DNA of 64,000 nucleotides from Bradyrhizobium arachidis (GTDB taxonomy: Bacteria; Pseudomonadota; Alphaproteobacteria; Rhizobiales; Xanthobacteraceae). Position 1 is the first letter of the stretch. Each line of letters starts with the position of its first letter. The notes beneath the pieces are model-generated. The model searched no databases. It was not told where the DNA came from and saw only the letters and a list, made by a program, of their open reading frames with translations. A program made the position numbers and the translations under genes. This document shows, one piece after another, positions 33,582-48,820 of this stretch. The stretch covers positions 186,001 to 250,000 of the forward strand of contig NZ_CP030050.1 of the NCBI RefSeq assembly GCF_015291705.1. The letters are read 5' to 3'.

Positions 33582-33605
33582 CAGCGCCGAGCCATTCCTG
33601 TTCAC

Positions 33606-34214
33606 TCACACCGCAACTAGCCGTTCGCGCCGCAGGAACGCAAGCAGCGGCAACAGCGGCAGGCCGAGAATGGTGAAATGGTCACCCTCGATGCGCTCGA
33701 ACAGGTGCACGCCCAGGCCTTCGAGCTGATAGGCGCCGACGCTGGTTGTGACCACCTCGCCGGCGGCGTCGAGATAGGCGGACAGTTCAGCATCGGTCAT
33801 CGACCGCATGGTCATGCGGGCGACCGAGACATCCTCAAAGACGATCTTGCCGTCATGCGCTACGGCCACGGCGGAATTCAGCTCATGGCTGTTGCCGGCG
33901 AGATCGCGCAGTTGCGCCAGCGCCTGGGCGCGGCCGGCGGGCTTGTTGAAGAGGCGATCGCCAAGCGCCAGCGTCTGGTCGGCGCCGATCACGTAGCTTC
34001 CCGGATGATGAGCCGAGACCGCCTTCGCCTTCTCGCGCGCCAGCAGCAGGCCGATCTCGCGCGGGCTGGAAAGTTTTGACGCAGCCTGTATGCCGCGCTC
34101 GTCGATGTCAGCGGTGAGGGCCTTGAACTCGAGCCCGGCATTGGCCAGCAGCAACTTTCGCGCGCTGCTTTGCGAGGCCAGAATCAACGGAGTTTTGCCG
34201 CGCCAGAGAGCCAT
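33606..34214 (-). CDS. maf: Maf family nucleotide pyrophosphatase
   Basis: A 202-residue Maf protein; LILASQSSARKLLLANAGLEF, DQTLALGDRLFNKP and the C-terminal hydrophobic LGLPLLPLLAFLR are characteristic. Maf proteins hydrolyse modified or canonical nucleoside triphosphates and have been linked to division arrest. The start at 34214 shares one base with the stop of the upstream gene (TAATG), indicating translational coupling. It is the YhdE/YceF class; the substrate is not decidable by eye. Confidence 0.95.
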   Translation of the reverse strand: MALWRGKTPLILASQSSARKLLLANAGLEFKALTADIDERGIQAASKLSSPREIGLLLAREKAKAVSAHHPGSYVIGADQTLALGDRLFNKPAGRAQALAQLRDLAGNSHELNSAVAVAHDGKIVFEDVSVARMTMRSMTDAELSAYLDAAGEVVTTSVGAYQLEGLGVHLFERIEGDHFTILGLPLLPLLAFLRRERLVAV

Positions 34215-35053
34215 TATTCCGACGGCCGGTTGCGCTGACGATCGCTGTAGAGCTTCATGATCGCCGCCGCGGTTTCCTCGATCGAGCGGCGCGTGACGTC
34301 CAGCAGCGGCCAATCATGCTTGGCGCTGAGCTTGCGCGCAAACGCGACCTCCTCGGTGACCGACTGTCTGTCGGTGTAGGTGTCGCTGCCGGAGTCGGCG
34401 CCGAGTGAGAGCAGGCGGTTCTGACGGATCTGGATCAGGCGTTCCGGCGTTGCGTGCAGGCTGACGACCAGCGGCCGTGTCAGCTTCTCCAATTGCTCGG
34501 GCACCGGGATGCCGGGAACCAGCGGCACGTTGGCGGTGCGGATGCCGCGATTGGCGAGGTAAATCGACGTCGGCGTCTTCGAGGTGCGGGACACGCCGAC
34601 CAGCACCACGTCGGCATCGTCGAGGCCTTCGACATGCTGGCCGTCGTCATGAATCATCGTGTAGTTCAGCGCGTCGATGCGCTTGAAATATTCCGCATTC
34701 AGGACGTGCTGGGCGCCGACGCGGCCCGTCGTCGCAGCACCGAGATAAGCTTCGAACAGCTGCATCACCGGGCCGATGATCGACAGGCTAGGAACATTGA
34801 TCCCCTTGCACTTGTCCTCGAGCCTCGAGACGAGGTCCTTCTCAAGCAGCGTGAACAGCACGATCCCCGGCGCCTCCTCGATCTCGTCGAGCACGCGGTC
34901 GAGCTGCTTCTGGCTGCGCACCAGCGGATAGACATGCTCGACCGGGGTCACGTTGGCGTATTGGGCGGCGACGGCGCGCGCCACGGTGATCAGCGTCTCA
35001 CCGGTCGAGTCGGAAACGAGATGCAGATGGAAATAATTGTTCGAGGTCGGCAC
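34214..35053 (-). CDS. ppsR: DUF299 bifunctional kinase/pyrophosphorylase (PPDK/PEPS regulatory protein)
   Basis: A 279-residue protein of the DUF299 family, which phosphorylates and dephosphorylates either pyruvate phosphate dikinase or PEP synthase. It opens [14 protein letters not shown]; the P-loop is [18 protein letters not shown], and the remainder fits the family. Which partner is regulated cannot be told here. This gene (RP001 in Rickettsia) flanks the replication origin of Caulobacter, so its position next to an empty 460-bp spacer matters. Confidence 0.93.
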
Positions 35054-35513
35054 AAAAACCCTTTGAATTTCGTTGGGGCGGTTTGTGGATTTCTGTGGAG
35101 CTTAACCGCTCGGAAAGGGATGCGCGACACCAGGGGCGGGACAAGTGCCAATTTTCTTCACACCGCTGCCCATCAGAACAAGTCCGGCGCCCTCGCGGCA
35201 GGAAAACGGGATTGCGCGGACAACTCCCTTGATAAGCTGCCGACGGAAGCGTGCAAGCCTTTGAAGCTGGGCGACTTATCGGAAGTCGCCGGAGCTTGCC
35301 GGGATATGTTGATGGATGTGAACAAGCGCGCGCGAACCGGCGGACGGCGTTGCGTGAGTCCAATCCACGGTCACTCAGACTCAAACCTTTAAGAATCTAA
35401 GATTCTAGATTTGAGGAAGGCGCTACGGACGGATATGTGTGCAGGGGAAGACCTTAACGAGTTCTTACTATCCCCAGCCTTCCCTAGGCTGGGCGGGAAT
35501 CCGGGCGCAGAGC
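35054..35513. other. Candidate chromosomal replication origin (oriC) in the ppsR-hemJ spacer
   Basis: A 460-bp gene-free spacer from which ppsR-maf-coaE-dnaQ and hemJ-rho-mnmE run in opposite directions. It holds four GANTC sites in 50 bp (35356, 35378, 35393, 35401) plus one at 35497. The palindrome AGAATC-TAA-GATTCT lies at 35392-35406. Loose DnaA-box-like sequences are TGTGGATTT (35084) and TGTGAACAA (35317). TTAA-N7-TTAC, one base from the CtrA consensus, is at 35454-35468. The neighbourhood matches the Caulobacter origin (next to the RP001 homologue). The assignment is inference; the boxes alone are weak. Confidence 0.6.
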
Positions 35514-35948
35514 ATGTTCGAAGACGTCTATCTCTGGATCAAGGCGCTGCATGTGATCGCCGTCATCTCCTGGATGGCGGGCATGCTCTATCTGCCGCGG
35601 CTGTTCGTCTATCACTGCGAGGCCGAGATCGGCTCGAAGCAGTCCGAGACGTTCAAGATCATGGAACGCCGGCTGCTCAAGGCGATCATCAATCCCGCCA
35701 TGATGGTGACCTGGCTCGCCGGCCTCTATCTGGCCTGGTCCGGCCACTGGTTCACCTTCGGCTGGCTGCACGTAAAACTGGCACTGGTGCTGGCGATGTC
35801 CGCGGTCCACGGCTTTTTTTCCCGCTGGGTGAAGGACTTCGCTGCCGACCGGCGCCCGCGCAGCCAGAAATTCTATCGAATTATCAATGAGGTGCCGACC
35901 GTCCTGATGATTGTCATCGTCATCATGGTAATCGTGAAGCCGTTCTAG
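35514..35948 (+). CDS. hemJ: Protoporphyrinogen oxidase HemJ
   Basis: A 144-residue membrane protein with four transmembrane helices and the HemJ signature (VYLWIKALHVIAVISWMAGMLYLPRLFVYH), including the conserved His. KIMERRLLKAIINPAMMVTW and a C-terminal KFYRIINEVPTVLMI follow. By family it oxidises protoporphyrinogen IX to protoporphyrin IX in the inner membrane. ATG 35514 fits the normal length; an upstream in-frame start at 35439 is unlikely. rho follows, as in many alphaproteobacteria. Confidence 0.94.
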   Translation: MFEDVYLWIKALHVIAVISWMAGMLYLPRLFVYHCEAEIGSKQSETFKIMERRLLKAIINPAMMVTWLAGLYLAWSGHWFTFGWLHVKLALVLAMSAVHGFFSRWVKDFAADRRPRSQKFYRIINEVPTVLMIVIVIMVIVKPF

Positions 35949-37512: not shown

Positions 37513-37779
37513 TGTGCGGTCTTGCTGCGCAAAAAGTGCAGCATGGCCGGTGAGTACGATCGAAACTATCGGGTTTAGTAACTTATTGATATACAAGCAG
37601 AATGCTTGACTTTTATCGCTGATGAGTTGTGCGCGGGAGCAAGGTATTGCAGTAAAGGCGGTGTGGTTTGCTGCATTGCAATACAGATTTTGCTGCGCGC
37701 GGAGCCGCAGCAAAATCGACGACTGAGGCTGCTTGGAAAGCTGCGTTTGCCTTTTCCCCGCCAGCCGGACAAATAGGCC
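37513..37779. other. AT-rich spacer upstream of mnmE with a 12-bp perfect hairpin
   Basis: No gene is supported in this stretch. Around 37560-37620 it is unusually AT-rich for the window (runs such as GTAACTTATTGATATACAAG). At 37686-37717, GATTTTGCTGCG and CGCAGCAAAATC form a perfect 12-bp stem with an 8-nt loop. A second inverted pair, TATTGCA / TGCAATA, lies just upstream (about 37644-37683). The mnmE promoter should be here. Confidence 0.6.
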
Positions 37780-39129: not shown

Positions 39130-39131
39130 CG

Positions 39132-39154
39132 CTAGTTCTTCATTCTAGAACTAG
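39132..39154 (+). terminator. Hairpin after mnmE, possible terminator
   Basis: CTAGTTCT (39132-39139) and AGAACTAG (39147-39154) form a perfect 8-bp stem with a 7-nt loop, starting 2 bp after the mnmE stop. The following TGCTTGTTCC is only moderately T-rich, so termination is plausible but not certain. Confidence 0.45.
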
Positions 39155-39172
39155 TGCTTGTTCCATTGTTTG

Positions 39173-39188
39173 TATTTCACGTGGAACA
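39173..39188. other. Degenerate parS-like site
   Basis: TATTTCACGTGGAACA differs at two positions from the 16-bp parS consensus TGTTTCACGTGAAACA. It lies in the mnmE-mnmG spacer with three other sites. Confidence 0.5.
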
Positions 39189-39209
39189 ACGAGCCGATTG
39201 GCTCGACCA

Positions 39210-39225
39210 GGTTTCACGAGAAACG
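39210..39225. other. Degenerate parS-like site
   Basis: The 14-bp core GTTTCACGAGAAAC at 39211-39224 differs from the palindromic parS core by a single T-to-A change, breaking the palindrome centre. ParB binding would need testing. Confidence 0.5.
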
Positions 39226-39318
39226 CGGCGGCAATCGCTACCGAGAGAGTAGTGGGTCCCAACGCGCCCGTCGACTTCGCCGCGGGAACGGTGCCGGCTG
39301 GTCAATGGCGAGGAGCTC

Positions 39319-39388
39319 TTGCGACGAAGCAATCCAGGCTGCTTCCGCGGAGGCATTATGGATTGCTTCGCTACGCTCGCAATGACGG
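39319..39388. repeat. Palindromic repeat, family E (copy 1)
   Basis: TTGCGACGAAGCAATCCAG at the left and TGGATTGCTTCG..CTCGCAATGACGG at the right, with the middle GCTTCCGCGGAGG. It lies in the mnmE-mnmG spacer between parS sites. Another copy is at 44423-44502. Confidence 0.88.
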
Positions 39389-39476
39389 GCTTAGTGTCAA
39401 CCTCGCTCTCCCACGCCTGCGCCCCGGTGTCGCGGTGTTAGCTCTGTCGCCACCCTGTCGCGTCGTCGGACCAGCT

Positions 39477-39492
39477 TGTTTCACGTGAAACA
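39477..39492. other. parS centromere site (perfect)
   Basis: TGTTTCACGTGAAACA, a perfect 16-bp match to the bacterial parS consensus bound by ParB. It lies 142 bp before mnmG. parA and parB follow within 4 kb. Confidence 0.92.
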
Positions 39493-39561
39493 GCAGTCCG
39501 CTCAGCGCCCGCCTACTGTGCATGGGGTTGTTTCCAAGAAATCGCTCTCGCCCCCGCCGTC

Positions 39562-39577
39562 CGTTTCACGTGAAACA
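39562..39577. other. parS centromere site
   Basis: CGTTTCACGTGAAACA contains the exact 14-bp palindrome GTTTCACGTGAAAC, with one flank mismatch. It is 85 bp from the site at 39477, close to mnmG. Confidence 0.9.
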
Positions 39578-39633
39578 CTCGCACACCCAGTTTCTACTTC
39601 CGGCTTTCACACCTCTGAGCTAGAAGTCGGCCC

Positions 39634-41514
39634 ATGCGAACAGAGCGAGAGAGCTTCGACGTCATCGTGATTGGCGGCGGCCACGCCGGCTGTGAGGCTG
39701 CGGCCGCGTCTGCGCGGATGGGCGCAACGACCGCTCTGGTGACGCACCGTTTCGCCACCGTCGGTGCGATGTCCTGCAATCCCGCCATTGGCGGTCTCGG
39801 CAAAGGCCATCTCGTCCGTGAAGTCGATGCCCTCGACGGCCTGATGGGCCGCGTCGGCGACGCCGGTGGTATCCAGTTTCGCGTCCTCAACCGCCGGAAG
39901 GGTCCCGCTGTGCGTGGTCCTCGGGCCCAGGCGGATCGGAAGCTCTACGCCGCCGCGATGCAGGCCGCGATCCGGGAGACCGTGAGTCTTTCGGTCATCG
40001 AAGGTGAGGCCGACGAGCTGATCGTGGTCGACGGCCGGGTGACCGGGCTGCGCCTGGCAGATGGCCGGGAGCTTCGGGCAGGGGCTGTTGTGGTCACGAC
40101 CGGCACCTTCCTGCGCGGTCTGATCCATCTCGGTGAGCAAAACTGGCCAGCCGGTCGAGTCGGTGAGGCCCCGGCGATGGGTCTTTCGACCTCCTTTGAA
40201 CGCGCCGGCTTCACCCTGGGACGGCTCAAGACCGGCACCCCGCCGCGCCTGGACGGCACCACGATCGACTGGTCTGCGGTCGAGATGCAGCCGGGAGACG
40301 AGCCGCCGGAGCCGTTTTCGGTGATGACGGAGCGGATCACGACCCCGCAGATCCAGTGCGGCATCACCCGGACCACGGCCACGACCCATGAGGTGATCCG
40401 GGCGAACGTCCATCGTTCCCCGATGTACTCCGGCCAGATCAAGAGCTCCGGTCCCCGCTATTGCCCCTCGATCGAGGACAAGATCGTCCGCTTCGGTGAC
40501 CGCGATGGCCACCAGATCTTCCTGGAGCCGGAAGGGCTCGATGACAGCACCGTTTATCCCAACGGCATCTCGACCTCGCTGCCGGAGGAGGTCCAGCTCG
40601 CGATCCTCGCCAGTATCCCCGGCCTCGAGCGGGTCAAGATGGTCCGGCCGGGCTATGCCATCGAATACGACCATATCGATCCCCGCGAGCTCGATCCGAC
40701 CCTCCAGACCAAGCGTCTGCGTGGCCTGTTCCTGGCCGGGCAGATCAACGGCACTACTGGATACGAGGAAGCCGCCGGGCAGGGCATCGTGGCCGGCCTG
40801 AACGCCGCGCTCGCCGCCAGTGGCGCGGCGCTGACTGTGTTCGACCGCGCCGACGGCTATCTCGGCGTGATGATCGACGACCTCGTCACCCGCGGGATCA
40901 CCGAGCCTTATCGGATGTTCACCTCGCGCGCCGAATACCGGCTGACGCTGCGGGCTGACAATGCCGACCAGCGCCTGACCGAAAAGGGGATCGCTCTCGG
41001 CTGCGTCGGGAGTGCCCGGACCCAGCATCACCGCGCCAAGATGGACGCTCTGAACGCCGCCCGGACCCTCTCGAAGTCGCTCACGATCACTCCGAACGAG
41101 GCGATCAAGCATGGACTGTCCCTAAACCGGGACGGCCAGCGCCGTTCGGCCTTCGAGCTGATGGCCTATCCGGAGATCGGCTGGAGCCAGGTCCGATCGA
41201 TCTGGCCCGAGCTGTCCGCGATCGATCCCGTCATCGCCACCCATCTCGAGATCGACGCCAAGTACGACGTCTACCTCGAGCGCCAGAGTGCCGACGTCGA
41301 GGCCTTCCGCCGCGACGAGGGCATGGTGCTCTCGGATGTCGACTACAAGCTGGTCCCGGGTCTCTCCAATGAGGTCCGCGCCAAGCTGGAGAAAGCCCGC
41401 CCGTTCACGGTCGGCCAGGCCGGCCGGATCGACGGCATGACGCCGGCGGCGCTCGGCATCCTCGCGGCCTATCTCCGCCGCGAAGCGCGGAAAACCTCCA
41501 AGGCAATCGCATAA
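39634..41514 (+). CDS. mnmG: tRNA uridine-5-carboxymethylaminomethyl modification enzyme MnmG (GidA)
   Basis: A 626-residue FAD enzyme, partner of MnmE. The dinucleotide-binding motif is [22 protein letters not shown]. Family motifs include [52 protein letters not shown] and [31 protein letters not shown] and the C-terminal [10 protein letters not shown] are also present. Complete. rsmG begins 22 bp downstream, over a parS site. Confidence 0.98.
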
Positions 41515-41528
41515 GCCAATCGTATAGG

Positions 41529-41544
41529 CGTTTCACGTGAAACA
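41529..41544. other. parS centromere site containing the rsmG start codon
   Basis: CGTTTCACGTGAAACA with the exact 14-bp core at 41530-41543. The GTG at 41537-41539 inside it is the only usual start codon available in the rsmG frame before the conserved core. The site therefore appears both to load ParB and to begin translation of rsmG. Confidence 0.88.
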
Positions 41545-42310: not shown

Positions 42311-42340
42311 AACGTTCAGGGGTTGAGTGGGGAATTTGCG

Positions 42341-43195
42341 ATGACCGTGATTGACGAGCCGCAGCAAGAACAGACCACAGAAGTCCCGCAGGGCCACCCG
42401 CGCATCCTGGCGCTGGCGAATCAGAAGGGCGGGGTGGGAAAAACAACCACAGCGATCAATCTCGGCACGGCACTCGCTGCGATTGGCGAGCGTGTCCTGA
42501 TCGTCGATCTCGATCCGCAGGGCAACGCCTCGACCGGCCTCGGCATCGACCGCCGCAACCGAAGCTGCTCGACCTATGACGTGCTGATCGGCGAAGCGAG
42601 CTTGCGTGAAGCGGTGGTCTCGACCGCGGTGCCGCGGCTGCACATCGCGCCCTCGACCATGGATCTCTCCGGCCTCGAGCTCGAGCTCGGCACCACGCCC
42701 GGCCGCGCCTTCAAGCTGCGTGATGCGATCGGCGCGCTCAACAACAATGTCTCGCCGGACGCCGACTACACCTATGTGTTGATCGACTGTCCGCCCTCGC
42801 TCAACCTGCTCACGGTCAACGCGATGGCGGCATCCGACGCGATCCTGGTGCCGCTGCAGTGCGAGTTCTTTGCGCTCGAAGGTCTGTCGCAATTGCTGCA
42901 GACGGTGGAGCAGGTGCGCTCGACGCTCAACCCGAGCCTGTCGATCCACGGCATCGTGCTGACCATGTTCGACTCGCGCAACAATCTCTCGAACCAGGTC
43001 GTCGCCGACGTCCGCCAGTTCATGGGCGAGAAGGTCTACAAGACCATGATCCCGCGCAACGTGCGCATCTCCGAGGCGCCGTCCTACGGCAAGCCGGTGC
43101 TGGTCTACGATCTCAAATGCGTCGGCAGCGAAGCTTACTTGCGGCTCGCCACCGAGGTCATCCAGCGCGAGCGCGAGCTGCGCGTCACACATTGA
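42341..43195 (+). CDS. parA: Chromosome partitioning ATPase ParA
   Basis: A 284-residue ParA of the chromosomal (Soj-like) type. The deviant Walker A is ANQKGGVGKTTTAINLG, A' is VLIVDLDPQGNASTGLG, and Walker B is YVLIDCPPSLNLLT. VPLQCEFFALEGLSQLLQT and SNQVVADVRQFMGEKVY are typical. ATG 42341 is preferred to the upstream TTG 42323. With ParB and parS it segregates the replication origins. parB follows after 145 bp, with a repeat element between. Confidence 0.98.
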   Translation: MTVIDEPQQEQTTEVPQGHPRILALANQKGGVGKTTTAINLGTALAAIGERVLIVDLDPQGNASTGLGIDRRNRSCSTYDVLIGEASLREAVVSTAVPRLHIAPSTMDLSGLELELGTTPGRAFKLRDAIGALNNNVSPDADYTYVLIDCPPSLNLLTVNAMAASDAILVPLQCEFFALEGLSQLLQTVEQVRSTLNPSLSIHGIVLTMFDSRNNLSNQVVADVRQFMGEKVYKTMIPRNVRISEAPSYGKPVLVYDLKCVGSEAYLRLATEVIQRERELRVTH

Positions 43196-43197
43196 CG

Positions 43198-43290
43198 GTG
43201 CCGTAGGGTGGGCAAAGGCGTCTTCGCCGTGCCCACCATCTTCCGCACATGACCAACCGGTGGGCACGCTTCGCTTTGCCCACCCTACGA
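43198..43290. repeat. Palindromic repeat, family A (copy 3), between parA and parB
   Basis: GTGCCGTAGGGTGGGCAAAG at the left and CGCTTTGCCCACCCTACG at the right, with inner arms GTGCCCACC / GGTGGGCACG. It fills most of the 145-bp parA-parB spacer. Confidence 0.92.
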
Positions 43291-43340
43291 TTCGAAATTC
43301 AGTTCTGGAGTGCTGCACCGTGAATCCAAGGGAGTTGGCA

Positions 43341-44228
43341 ATGGCCGACGAAGCGCGTTCGCGATTGGGCCGGGGTCTTGCGAGTCTGATCGGTGATGTC
43401 GGCGGCGAGGCTCAGCACGTCGACCGTCCGCGCACGCAGCGCAAGGTACCGATCGAATTCCTCAAGGCCAATCCGCGCAACCCGCGCCGCACCTTTTCGG
43501 ACACCGAGCTGAAGGAGCTCTCCGAGTCCATCAAGCAGCACGGCGTGATCCAGCCGATCGTGGTGCGGCCGGTGAAGGGCGCGCAGGACCGCTACGAGAT
43601 CATCGCCGGCGAGCGGCGCTGGCGCGCTTCGCAGATGGCGGGCCTGCATGAAGTGCCGATCGTCCCGGTCGACATCAGCGACAGCGATGCGCTGGAATTC
43701 GCGATCGTCGAGAACGTGCAGCGCGAAGATCTCAACCCGATGGAAGAGGCGCTCGGCTATCACGCGCTCGCCAACGAGTTCAAGCGCAGCCAGGACGACA
43801 TCGCAAAGGTCGTCGGCAAGAGCCGCAGCCACATCGCCAACATGATGCGGCTGACAAAACTGCCGACCGAGGTGCAGGCCCTGATCACCAGCGGCGATCT
43901 GACCGCCGGCCATGCCCGCGCGCTGATCGGTGTGCCCGATCCGCTTGCGGCCGCCAAGCGCATCGTCGAGGAAGGTCTCAACGTCCGCCAGGCCGAGGCG
44001 CTCGCGCATGAAGAGGGCGTGCCCGAGCGCAAGCCGCAGAAGGCGCGCTCGACCGGTGGCAAGGAAAAGGACCCCGACACCATCGATCTGGAGAAGCGCG
44101 TCAGTGACGCGCTCGGTCTCAAGGTCACCGTCAACCATCGCGACCCCGGCGGCTCGGTCCAGATCAACTACCGCAACCTCGATCAGCTCGACGAGGTGAT
44201 GAAGCGGCTCGCCAAGGGCGTGCTGTAG
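43341..44228 (+). CDS. parB: Chromosome partitioning protein ParB
   Basis: A 295-residue ParB. The N-terminal ParA-stimulating segment is RSRLGRGLASLIGD. ParB motifs IKQHGVIQPIVVRPV and IAGERRWRASQMAGL (with the CTP-binding GERR) precede ENVQREDLNPMEEALGYHAL. The HTH contains SQDDIAKVVGKSRSHIANMMRL. A dimerisation domain ends the protein. ATG 43341 has AAGGGA 7 bp upstream, and an in-frame GTG at 43320 is possible. Cognate parS sites lie 1.6-3.9 kb upstream. Confidence 0.98.
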   Translation: MADEARSRLGRGLASLIGDVGGEAQHVDRPRTQRKVPIEFLKANPRNPRRTFSDTELKELSESIKQHGVIQPIVVRPVKGAQDRYEIIAGERRWRASQMAGLHEVPIVPVDISDSDALEFAIVENVQREDLNPMEEALGYHALANEFKRSQDDIAKVVGKSRSHIANMMRLTKLPTEVQALITSGDLTAGHARALIGVPDPLAAAKRIVEEGLNVRQAEALAHEEGVPERKPQKARSTGGKEKDPDTIDLEKRVSDALGLKVTVNHRDPGGSVQINYRNLDQLDEVMKRLAKGVL

Positions 44229-44520: not shown

Positions 44521-45549
44521 TCAGCCCCGCCGCTTCGCGTTCGCGGCAATCGCCATCAGTGTGCGCTGGGCGATGGCGGCGGCGAGGGTCGATTGCTTGC
44601 GGGTGTCGAGCGCGGCGGTCGCGAGTTGCTCGATCACGGCGGTAAGCCGCGCCACGCTGAAATTGCGCAGTGCCGTTTCGACCATAGGCTTGCGCGAAAA
44701 ATGCAGCCGCGGATAGCCGCCGTCGAGCACCGCGGAGGCAGGCTGTCCGTCGGCGATCGCGAGCGCGGATTTGTGCAGCCACGCCGCCTGGCGCTGCGCG
44801 GCCGAGATGATTACGCCGGGATAGGTGCCGGCGATTATGGCTTTTGCGAATTCGGTCTCGACGATATCGGGCCGGCCGGCGAAGGCGCCGTCGACTATCG
44901 GATCGAGCTTCAGTTCGGACGCATCGGCGACCACGGACATCACATCATCCAGCGTGATCTCGCCCTTGCCATGAGCATAGAGCGTGAGCTTGCGCAGCTC
45001 GTTGCGCGAGGCCTGGCGGTCGCCGCCGAGGAAGGACATCAGCGCGGCGCGGGCATCCTGCGTGATGCGCAGATTGGCGATGCGGAGCTCGTCTTCCATC
45101 AGTTTTGCGAGGTCGCGCTCGGTGTCGGGATAGCAGCCGATCGCCACCGCGGTCTTGGCCTTCTCGCAGGCCTTGCGCAGCGGCGACTCGGGGCGCAGCT
45201 CGCCGGCCTCGATCACGATGCGGCAATCCTTGACGCTCATGTCCGCAAGCGTGTCGACGCCGCTGGCAAAGCTGCGCGAGCCGGCGCGGATGCGGATGGC
45301 GCGGCGGCCGCCGAACAGCGGCACGGTCATGGCTTCATCGACGAGGCGCGACGGCTCGGCCGAGAGCTCGTCGCCGTCGAGCTTGACCAGCGAGAAGGGA
45401 TCGTTGGGATCATCGACTGCGGAGGCGATCAGCGCATCGGCGCGCTCGCGCACGAGCCCGGCGTCAGGTCCATAGAGCAGGATGATCGGACGGCCCGCAT
45501 CGGGGCGGGCGAGGAAGGCATCGATCTCTTTTCCGCGCAGCGCGACCAT
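44521..45549 (-). CDS. holA: DNA polymerase III delta subunit
   Basis: A 342-residue clamp-loader delta subunit. IILLYGPDAGLVRERAD near the N-terminus, FGGRRAIRIRAGSRSF, EAGELRPESPLRKACE and the C-terminal HFSRKPMVETALRNFS helix are typical of alphaproteobacterial HolA. ATG 45549 is chosen; an upstream ATG at 45564 lies inside a repeat. It converges with parB. Confidence 0.93.
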   Translation of the reverse strand: MVALRGKEIDAFLARPDAGRPIILLYGPDAGLVRERADALIASAVDDPNDPFSLVKLDGDELSAEPSRLVDEAMTVPLFGGRRAIRIRAGSRSFASGVDTLADMSVKDCRIVIEAGELRPESPLRKACEKAKTAVAIGCYPDTERDLAKLMEDELRIANLRITQDARAALMSFLGGDRQASRNELRKLTLYAHGKGEITLDDVMSVVADASELKLDPIVDGAFAGRPDIVETEFAKAIIAGTYPGVIISAAQRQAAWLHKSALAIADGQPASAVLDGGYPRLHFSRKPMVETALRNFSVARLTAVIEQLATAALDTRKQSTLAAAIAQRTLMAIAANAKRRG

Positions 45550-45558
45550 GATCCAGAT

Positions 45559-45650
45559 CGTCATTCCGGGGCGCGCGAAGCGCGAACCCGGAATCCAGAG
45601 GTTGGGGATCGAGATTCCGGGTTCACGCTTCGCGTGCCCCGGAATGACGG
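45559..45650. repeat. Palindromic repeat, family D (copy 1)
   Basis: CGTCATTCCGGGGCGCGCG at the left and GTGCCCCGGAATGACGG at the right, with CGCGAACCCGGAATCC / GATTCCGGGTTCACGC inside. It lies between lptE and holA, which are on the same strand, so it would be in their transcript. Confidence 0.92.
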
Positions 45651-45657
45651 GAGTGAC

Positions 45658-46209
45658 TTACGTGCCCGCGGTGAAGAACGCGGCGAGCCGGGTCGTGATG
45701 TTTTCGGCGATCTCGTTGGCGGCGCGATCCTCGGCGTCGCGCACGGCGCGGTTGCGGGCGAAGCGCTGATAAGAGCCCGGCATGTCGTAGGACACGCGCG
45801 AGAACGTGGTGCCGGTCATCACCGACTTGCCGGTCGCGACCTCGATCAGATTGTACTGGGCGTCGATCCCGTAGTTTTCGCTGGTCGGCAGGGCCGTATT
45901 GGGATCGACCAGCAGCGACGACTTGCTGGAAGTGAAGCGGATGTCGAGGCGGTGGGTCGGCGGCATGCCAGTGGCGGTGCCGTAGAGCTTGAAGGCCAGG
46001 GCGTTGCGGACCTCGACGCCGACACGGGCCTCGCGGGAGGCGTTCGGCTTGGCGATCGGCGGAAGCTCGACCCCCATCAGCTTTTCGCGCAGGCCGGGGG
46101 TGCCGTCGGTACGCTCGGCATACATCGGCTGGAAGCAGCCGGCCGTCAGCGCCGCCAGAGCGGCAACCGCCACCAAGCGGGCTGCGATACGGATCCTAGC
46201 CGACAACAT
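45658..46209 (-). CDS. lptE: LPS assembly lipoprotein LptE
   Basis: A 183-residue lipoprotein with lipobox LTAGC (Cys25) and the alphaproteobacterial LptE pattern ([25 protein letters not shown] segment, [31 protein letters not shown]). LptE plugs the LptD barrel that places LPS in the outer membrane. It overlaps leuS by 14 bp, and the leuS-lptE-holA order is conserved in this class. Confidence 0.93.
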
Positions 46210-48820
46210 TCACGATCCTCTTGGGGACGATGATCACCTTGCGGACGGGCTTGCCGTCCAGGGCCAGCTTTACCGCATCGAGGGCCAAAACGGCAGCCTC
46301 GATTTCCGGATTCTGGGCCGCTGTTGCAACTGTGACCTCGCCCCGCTTCTTGCCGTTGACCTGGACCACCAGGGTCACGCTGTCTTCAACCAGCAAATCG
46401 CGTTCGATTTGCGGCCAATTGGCCTCTGAAACCAGCCCGGAGTGACCCAGAACCTGCCAGCACTCCTCGGCCAGGTGCGGCATCATCGGGGAGAACAGTT
46501 GGACCAGGATCTGGCTCGCCTCCCGGATCGCCCAGGCCAAATCAGGGGCCGGCTGGCCGGGACGCTGCAGCACCTCCGAAAACGCATTCGTGAACTCGCG
46601 GATATGGGCGAGGCACACGTTGAAGTGCAGCCGTTCGATGCCGGTGGTGATCTTGTCCAGCGCACCATGGGCCGCCTTGCGCAAGGCGGTCGCGTCAGGG
46701 CCGAAGGAGGCCGGCCGATCCGCCGGCGCGGCCTTGCCGAGATCCACGGAGTCGTTCACCAGCCGCCACAGCCGCTGCACGAAGCGCGAGGCGCCCTGGA
46801 CGCGCTCGTCGCTCCAGATCACGTCGCGGTCGGGCGGGGAGTCCGACAGCATGAACCAGCGGGCGACGTCGGCGCCGTAGGTTTCGATGATGTCGTCCGG
46901 ATCGACCGTGTTCTTCTTCGACTTCGACATCTTCTCGATCGGGCCGATTGTGATGTCTTCGCCTGATGTCAGCAGCGTCGCGCGCCTGCCATTAGCGCCG
47001 ATCTCGATCTTCACCTCGGCCGGCTGCACATAGGTGCCGTCGGCCGTCTGGTAGGTCTCGTGCACCACCATGCCCTGCGTGAACATCCCCGCGAACGGCT
47101 CGTCCAGCGCGATGTGTCCGGTCGCCTTCATCGCGCGGATGAAGAAGCGGCTGTAGAGCAGATGCAGGATCGCGTGCTCGACGCCGCCGATATACTGGTC
47201 GACCGGCAGCATCCGGTTGGCGACCGCAGGCGTCGTCGGCGCGTTCTCGTTCCAGGGATCGGTGAAGCGCGCAAAGTACCAGGACGAATCCACGAAGGTG
47301 TCCATGGTGTCGGTTTCGCGTTGCGCCTTGCCGCCGCATTTCGGGCAGGTGACGTGCTTCCAGGTCGGATGATGGTCGAGCGCGTTGCCTGGCTTGTCGA
47401 AGCTCACATCCTCCGGCAGCACCACCGGCAACTGGTCGTCCGGCACCGGCACCACATCGCATTTCGGGCAATGGATGACGGGAATCGGGCAGCCCCAATA
47501 GCGCTGGCGCGAAATGCCCCAGTCGCGCAGGCGGAAATTGACCTGGCGCTCGCCGACCGGCGCATTGCCGCGCAGCTCGCTCTCCAGACGCTTCGCCACC
47601 TCTTCCTTGGCCTGATCGATGGTCATGCCGTCGAGGAAGCGCGAATTGATCATGCGGCCGTCACCGTCATAGGCGGTGTCGGTGATGACGAATGATTTCG
47701 GGTCCTGGCCCTCGGGGCAAACGACCGGCGTGTTGCCGAGACTGTACTTGTTGACGAAGTCCAGGTCGCGCTGGTCGTGCGCCGGGCAGCCGAAGATCGC
47801 GCCGGTGCCGTACTCCATCAGCACGAAGTTCGCGACATAGACCGGCAGCTTCCAGGAGGGATCGAACGGGTGCACCGCGCGGATGCCGGTGTCAAAACCC
47901 TGCTTCTCCGCGGTGTCGATGATCGATTGCGCGGTGCCGATCTTCTTGATGTCGGAGATGAATTCCGCAAGCTTCGGGTTCTTCGCGGCAGCGGCCTGCG
48001 CCAGCGGATGATCCGACGAGATCGCCATGAATTTCGCGCCGAACAGCGTGTCGGGGCGCGTCGTGAAAATCTTCAGCTCGCTCTCGCCGGCAGGTGTCGT
48101 CGCCTGATCCAGCGCGAAGCGGATCAAGAGGCCCTCGGAGCGTCCGATCCAGTTGCGCTGCATCAGCCGCACCTTGTCGGGCCAGCGATCGAGCCCGTCC
48201 AGCGCCGACAGAAGCTCCTGCGAGTACTTCGTGATCTTGAAGACCCACTGGCTCATCTCGCGCTGCTCGACAATTGCGCCCGAGCGCCAGCCGCGGCCGT
48301 CGATCACCTGCTCGTTGGCGAGCACGGTCATATCGACCGGATCCCAGTTGAGCTTGCGCTTCTCACGCTCGGCGAGGCCCGCGGCGAGCATGTCCAAGAA
48401 CATCTTCTGCTGATGCTTGTAGTAGCTGGGGTCGCAGGTCGCGAATTCGCGTGACCAGTCCAGCGACAGCCCGATCGAGCGGAGCTGCTTCTTCATCGCG
48501 GCGATGTTGTCGTAGGTCCAGGACTTCGGCGCGACCTTGCGCTCGATGGCGGCGTTCTCGGCCGGCAGGCCGAACGCGTCCCAGCCCATCGGGTGCAGCA
48601 CGTTGTAGCCCCTGGCGCGCATGAAGCGGGCCAGCACGTCGCCGAGGGTGTAGTTGCGGACATGACCGATATGGATGCGTCCGGACGGGTAGGGGAACAT
48701 CTCGAGGACGTAGTATTTCGGCCGCGAATCGTCGTTCTTCGAGACGAAGATCGCTTGTTCGTCCCATTGGCGTTGCCAGCGCGGTTCGGCGTCGCGGGCG
48801 TTGTAGCGTTCGGAGGTCAT
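46196..48820 (-). CDS. leuS: Leucyl-tRNA synthetase
   Basis: An 874-residue class I aminoacyl-tRNA synthetase. [20 protein letters not shown] contains the HIGH motif; the editing domain (~220-420) has [17 protein letters not shown] and [24 protein letters not shown] is the second catalytic motif, and the C-terminal domain is complete. It is first in the leuS-lptE-holA unit. Its 5' end is divergent from a diguanylate cyclase gene. Confidence 0.98.

Follow-up and report, generated by a model that had tools for sequence, protein, structure and literature searches.

The ppsR-hemJ spacer and its flanking genes

The window analysed here is a 64-kb stretch of Bradyrhizobium arachidis DNA comprising bases 186001-250000 of a single contig (C1) of 9,865,973 bases. 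Positions are those of the window unless preceded by C1 or given in Mb or kb. Within it, a spacer at 35054-35513 (C1:221054-221513) separates two divergent genes. The spacer, its flanking genes and the open reading frames that overlap it are as follows.

34214-35053, minus strand: ppsR, left flank; kinase-PPPase, RP001/DUF299 homologue (PF03618, 8.2e-91; NCBIfam PRK05339, 4.3e-104)
35054-35513, no strand: proposed oriC; 460-bp non-coding spacer with divergent ppsR and hemJ on its sides
35514-35948, plus strand: hemJ, right flank (TIGR00701, 2.7e-50)
34454-35392, plus strand: antisense open reading frame reaching into the spacer (mechanical listing)
34998-35384, minus strand: open reading frame out of frame with ppsR, reaching into the spacer (mechanical listing)
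35411-35890, plus strand: open reading frame out of frame with hemJ, reaching into the spacer (mechanical listing)

The original prediction held that this spacer is empty and that its left-hand neighbour is the homologue of RP001, the gene that flanks the origin in Caulobacter. The PF03618 match bears out the identity of ppsR. The spacer is indeed non-coding and is bounded by the GTG start of ppsR (35053, minus strand) and the ATG start of hemJ (35514, plus strand), and an Rfam search of 34900-35700 returned no family at the gathering score. A longer reading of hemJ is possible from GTG 35439. The ATG start is favoured because conservation is low before it (0.56-0.62 at 35474-35513) and high from 35514 on (at least 0.84). 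The mechanical listing of reading frames of at least 120 amino acids contained four that reach into the spacer, the longer reading of hemJ included.

The genes were also predicted to diverge at this point. Leftward ppsR, maf, coaE and dnaQ and rightward hemJ, rho, mnmE, mnmG, rsmG, parA and parB do so, but this is true only over approximately 12 kb: secB (31724, plus strand), to the left, is directed towards the spacer, and holA, lptE and leuS (44521-48820, minus strand), to the right, are directed back towards it. The maf and coaE genes abut at 33605-33606 with no aroE between them; in other alphaproteobacteria, aroE sits between these two genes.

DnaA-like boxes

The DnaA-like boxes and related sites of the spacer are listed below.

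35084-35092, minus strand: DnaA-like box A (AAATCCACA); two mismatches to TTATCCACA; mean conservation 0.968
35094-35101, minus strand: second TGTGGA core, 10 bp from box A; conservation 0.95; picked after inspection of the alignment
35154-35162, plus strand: DnaA-like box B (TTCTTCACA); two mismatches; conservation 0.983
35228-35238, minus strand: CTTGATAAGCT site; picked after inspection of the alignment
35317-35325, minus strand: DnaA-like box D (TTGTTCACA); two mismatches; conservation 0.993
35355-35372, plus strand: core TGAGTCCAATCCACGGTC; GANTC site (GAGTC) adjoining the DnaA-like core AATCCAC
35468-35476, plus strand: DnaA-like CTATCCCCA; holds the Caulobacter weak-box hexamer TCCCCA; conservation 0.913

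The weak boxes anticipated in the original prediction are present above chance and are conserved. Specifically, the spacer contains four DnaA-like boxes at up to two mismatches from TTATCCACA, all four with two mismatches, as compared to a mean of 0.44 per overlapping 460-bp window of the sampled genome. Four or more boxes occurred in 0.17% of 24,162 such windows and in 0.8% of the 2,362 that were matched for GC content. No perfect TTATCCACA lies within the spacer, and the whole genome contains only two, at 8.69 and 8.78 Mb. The four boxes, which were picked by motif alone, had a mean conservation of 0.964 versus 0.786 for the rest of the spacer, and none of 459 circular shifts equalled their conservation.

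The patterns recur among relatives. In 81 sequences (the window and the best 80 of 135 loci), TGTGGA-N3-6-TGTGG[AG] was found in 72, TT-N-TTCACA of box B in 78, and TTGATAA of the 35228-35238 site in 60. Near the place matching this last site, a number of family spacers carry a DnaA-like box (TTATCAAGA, TTATCCAGA and others). Over 29 family spacers, some of which are near relatives, 136 DnaA-like boxes were observed versus 26.5 expected from dinucleotide shuffles, many of them at recurring distances and orientations relative to ppsR. One locus (L230), which ends before the neighbour gene, was left out of the family counts of boxes, GANTC sites and duplex stability; L227, L228 and L232 were left out of the family-spacer k-mer count, and L232 also of the family-spacer alignment.

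The core box AATCCAC (35362-35368) is three mismatches from the nine-base consensus. The core pattern TGAGTCNAATCNACNGNC gave 12 matches in 12 of 61 family genomes, all of them 287-319 bp upstream of the ppsR match; the other 49 had no match, and the reversed control gave none.

Unwinding element, GANTC sites and CtrA-like site

The region to the right of the core contains the following features.

35378-35382, no strand: GANTC site GACTC; conservation 0.997
35383-35412, no strand: probable DNA unwinding element; the 30-mer with the lowest duplex stability in the 64-kb window
35392-35406, no strand: palindrome AGAATCT-A-AGATTCT; two GANTC sites (35393, 35401)
35454-35468, no strand: CtrA-like site TTAA-N7-TTAC; one mismatch

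The duplex stability of the 30-mer at 35383-35412 was 31.8 kcal/mol, the lowest of eight spacers of the window that were compared. This instability is by itself no proof of an origin, as it is reached at 31 places in the 2.82 Mb of genome sampled. In 28 of 29 family spacers, the exception being L252, the least stable 30-mer occurs at the matching place and starts 304-371 bases from ppsR. Taken as a whole, the 30-mer does not stand out in conservation, with 98 of 459 shifts doing as well. A segment of the rho-mnmE spacer (37574-37603) is nearly as unstable (32.0) and is without DnaA-like boxes.

Four GANTC sites (GAGTC, GACTC, GAATC and GATTC) fall within 50 bp, two of them inside the unwinding segment. 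Clusters of at least four GANTC sites in 50 bp numbered four in the 2.82 Mb sampled, the spacer's own included. Two of the other three lie side by side, at C1 670375 and 670532. Among the eight window spacers compared, that between ppsR and hemJ has the most GANTC sites (five) and the most DnaA-like boxes (four). In the 29 family spacers, 135 GANTC sites were observed versus 45.4 in base shuffles. Considered jointly, the five sites of the spacer are not conserved above background (52 of 459 shifts do as well) because the site at 35497 is unconserved (0.547). The palindrome noted in the original prediction is AGAATCT-A-AGATTCT, and AGANTCTNAGANTCT occurs once in the 9.87-Mb genome. All 81 sequences (the window and the best 80 of 135 loci) contained AGANTCT, 64 of them in the double palindrome form.

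The near-CtrA box of the same prediction was also recovered: TTAACGAGTTCTTAC, at 35454, has one mismatch, and such sites average 0.017 per 460 bp. The form TTAA-N7-TTA[AC] was found in 65 of the 81 sequences (the window and the best 80 of 135 loci). The site is not better conserved than its surroundings, with 139 of 459 shifts doing as well. The spacer contains no perfect TTAA-N7-TTAA, the one imperfect site being the only match at one mismatch. In a paper on the Wolbachia group, origins are described as carrying 0-7 CtrA sites (PMC1914354). Multiple sites are thus not a strict requirement.

Conservation and gene order in relatives

Judged by ppsR, the nearest named relatives are Bradyrhizobium: among the best 80 of 135 confirmed loci, identity was 94-99% in 73 and 87-89% in 7. 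The spacer was matched in all of these 80, with a median coverage of 98% and a median identity of 85%, and hemJ adjoins it in all 80 (spacer 402-512 bp, median 459).

In the wider family, ppsR is present in all 61 genomes. At 29 of 30 family loci fetched, its neighbour across the spacer is hemJ in 17 and hemE in 12. In two of the loci of the hemE type, hemJ directly follows hemE. The strong hemE (URO-D) match of the present genome is at C1:2528895-2529908, or 2.53 Mb. hemE commonly serves as a marker for origins in alphaproteobacteria. As 12 of the 29 loci keep hemE and 17 have hemJ, its absence looks as if a single gene had dropped out of a common site. To judge from gene order rather than from a tree, hemE seems to have been lost from this site, perhaps more than once. 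With hemE lacking at 17 of these 29 loci, ppsR is the safer landmark here.

The comparison with eight other families covered 8 of 38 class-level places outside this genome. In these, hemE was next to ppsR in six of eight loci. The eight spacers contained 3-10 DnaA-like boxes each, as raw counts without a shuffle control over 520 bases that include 30 of ppsR and, in some, the hemE start.

Strand asymmetry and the dif-like site

Skew was evaluated using 100 stretches of 20 kb followed by contiguous tiling of 0-1.0 Mb. The contiguous minimum, sought within 0-1.0 Mb only, was at C1:214,675 (window 28,675), 6.4 kb from the spacer. Over the tiled region, cumulative GC skew went down by approximately 1,500 from 0 to 200 kb; it had climbed to +325 at 700 kb and was down again to -518 at 800 kb. 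The series of 100 samples, in which cumulative GC skew was lowest at 0.7-0.9 Mb, is too noisy near the origin to rely on.

Skewed-octamer walks had minima at 201.6 and 204.4 kb for the stricter sets and at 346 kb for the loosest. By step fitting, the estimate was 215 kb for the strict set (95% range 90-440) and 360 kb for the loose one (215-545). For the latter, 221 kb was the poorest of eight positions compared, worse than 0. Skew is weak near the proposed origin and the octamer estimates spread over 0.2-0.36 Mb; the origin is thus placed by skew in the neighbourhood, not in the spacer itself. A skew minimum elsewhere had been named as the finding that would count against the prediction; on the sampled genome, the GC minimum 6.4 kb away and the octamer estimates of 0.2-0.36 Mb do not refute it.

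The word GGGNAGGG occurred in a forward:reverse ratio of 111:10 in 46 samples starting at 0.8-5.3 Mb, 12:89 in 46 samples from 5.4 Mb on, and 7:7 in the 8 samples at 0-0.7 Mb. Its strand bias fades towards the origin, which we take to be the behaviour expected of an FtsK-orienting word. A strong strand bias was also seen for GGGCAGGG (110 versus 5 in the training arms).

At the opposite pole of the chromosome lies the genome's only perfect match to the dif-like pattern CGCATAA-N6-TTATG, at 5,325,624. Its distance to the spacer is 5.10 Mb in one direction and 4.76 Mb in the other. When one mismatch was allowed, the pattern gave 5 matches versus 12 for the reversed control, so only the perfect match and its place carry weight.

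parS sites and parAB

Centromere sites and partition genes lie to the right of the spacer.

39173-39188, no strand: parS, one mismatch
39477-39492, no strand: parS, perfect TGTTTCACGTGAAACA
39562-39577, no strand: parS, one mismatch
41529-41544, no strand: parS, one mismatch
42323-43195, plus strand: parA (PF13614, 4.2e-60)
43260-44228, plus strand: parB (PF02195, PF17762)

The genome contains six parS sites, and the four at 39173-41544, 3.7-6 kb right of the spacer, are the only cluster. The other two, at 6.37 and 8.25 Mb, are isolated with one mismatch each; the reversed control gave none. The predicted proximity of parS and parAB, within 10 kb, thus holds. Three of the sites are inside the 504-bp mnmE-mnmG spacer (39130-39633), which contains neither a DnaA-like box at up to two mismatches nor a GANTC site.

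These sites bear on the literature. In B. diazoefficiens, the origin is described as having been located by 'DnaA binding boxes (TGTTTCACG)' (PMC4840208). Since the parS palindrome TGTTTCACGTGAAACA contains TGTTTCACG, the chromosome as published was probably rotated by reference to ParB sites instead of DnaA boxes.

The spacer as probable chromosomal origin

Based on the abovementioned results, the ppsR-hemJ spacer is very probably the chromosomal origin of replication, as originally predicted. Its position in the skew valley, the excess and conservation of its boxes, its low duplex stability, the sharing of the site with the ppsR-hemE spacers of relatives, and the placement of parS and the dif-like site were all computed here and support this assignment. 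The steps of initiation are proposed from the arrangement of sites. DnaA would assemble on the array of weak boxes over approximately 300 bp, comprising box A, box B, the 35230 site, box D and the core box. The AT-rich segment at 35383-35412, beside the core box (35362-35368), would then melt, and helicase would be loaded there. The forks would depart both ways and converge in the vicinity of the dif-like site (5.33 Mb), while ParB bound to the parS cluster 3.7-6 kb away would segregate the new origins. Any control by CcrM or CtrA at the spacer is likewise putative.

We considered whether the spacer serves only to express and regulate the divergent ppsR and hemJ, in which case promoters and transcription-factor sites would account for its conservation and the origin would lie elsewhere. 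Two genes do diverge from it, promoter elements could explain the CtrA-like site and the double AGANTCT, and the hemJ-rho spacer is likewise well conserved (median identity 91.8% in the best 80 of 135 loci). However, loci with hemJ and loci with hemE on the right have DnaA-like boxes at roughly comparable distances from ppsR, and the core pattern, although absent from 49 of the 61 genomes, is confined in the others to the place upstream of ppsR. Moreover, the lowest-stability segment and the GC-skew valley coincide at the spacer. We accordingly regard a purely regulatory role as very unlikely.

In some bacteria, the origin adjoins gidA. The mnmE-mnmG spacer is a gap in the same skew valley with three parS sites inside it, and could on these grounds be the true origin. 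Its lack of boxes and GANTC sites, its higher stability (35.1 versus 31.8) and its poorer matching in relatives (74 of the best 80 of 135 loci, median coverage 0.53) make this even more improbable, and parS already accounts for the spacer as a centromere. An origin at dnaA (C1:382, 221 kb from the ppsR-hemJ spacer), an arrangement common in other bacteria, is scarcely credible: the sequence record begins there and the loose octamer set fits position 0 better than 221 kb, but cumulative GC skew is still falling over the first 200 kb and only then rises, and position 0 fits worst among the eight compared when the strict octamer set is used.

With the ppsR-hemJ spacer as the preferred origin, what was a prediction from skew and synteny becomes a base-level map in which the boxes, the unwinding segment, the methylation sites and the centromere sites nearby are each accessible to mutagenesis.

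Possible methylation control

The genome's only PF01555 methyltransferase, a 377-residue open reading frame with a DPPY motif, is a candidate CcrM. This assignment draws on the single PF01555 match and on the report for B. diazoefficiens, according to which 99.8% of GANTC sites are methylated in free-living cells, an activity attributed to CcrM (PMC4840208). The new detail at the present locus is the conserved cluster of CcrM sites within the predicted unwinding segment.

One tentative and rather unlikely reading makes the unwinding element a switch operated by its own methylation. Once a fork had passed, the element would be hemimethylated and would stay closed until CcrM acts late in the cycle. 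This would provide a once-per-cycle lock in Bradyrhizobium and its relatives that needs few CtrA sites. The repeated AGANTCT may in addition be read by DnaA, giving it a dual role: it resembles AGATCT, described as a single-strand DnaA site in the E. coli unwinding region that is so far exclusive to E. coli (PMC4285127). A modelling paper on Caulobacter treats methylation of Cori as required for initiation (PMC2217572). Counted against the switch are reports that ccrM is dispensable for viability in Caulobacter (PMC3885167) and that CcrM depletion in Agrobacterium causes no obvious difference in ori1 duplication (PMC11514494). The conserved GANTC cluster makes CcrM gating of initiation directly testable in a slow-growing symbiont.

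Relation to published origins

The place of the origin is already in print for the genus. In USDA110, the putative origin is between bll0636 and blr0637, and USDA6 has 82% identity there over 391 bp (PMC3927601). The DOA9 orthologues are 510 and 846 bp, and their coordinates leave 385 bp between them (PMC4339197). In the present genome, the GTG reading of hemJ is 510 bp, ppsR is 840 bp and the gap (35054-35438) is 385 bp, the spacer being shorter if hemJ starts at the upstream GTG. From these gene sizes and spacing, we infer that the ppsR-hemJ spacer corresponds to the published bll0636-blr0637 origin. The published passages on these strains differ from the present description in giving no anatomy of boxes, unwinding element or GANTC sites. 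In the literature, as judged by titles and abstract openings, we recognised no experimental mapping of a Bradyrhizobium origin, which does not prove its absence.

As a probable origin, the spacer is of a known type, except that hemE is absent from the site. Cori of Caulobacter crescentus lies in the hemE/COG1806 spacer (PMC1914354, PMC4285127). Similarly, the present spacer has RP001/ppsR (COG1806) on one side, a cluster of DnaA boxes (four, all weak) that includes a TCCCCA-type hexamer, an AT-rich region and a CtrA-like site. The predicted unwinding region is beside a DnaA box, namely that with three mismatches. parS and parAB are within a few kb, and strand asymmetry switches in the vicinity, its placing being coarse. 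In contrast to Cori, the second boundary gene is hemJ instead of hemE, the G-box TGATCCACA is not among the four boxes, and there is one imperfect CtrA site as compared to five. A further parallel is the oriC of Methylocystis SC2, an Ori-Finder prediction based on indicator genes and box density (PMC3794950): it also has a low-GC stretch and few DnaA boxes, and a dif site lies roughly halfway around the chromosome.
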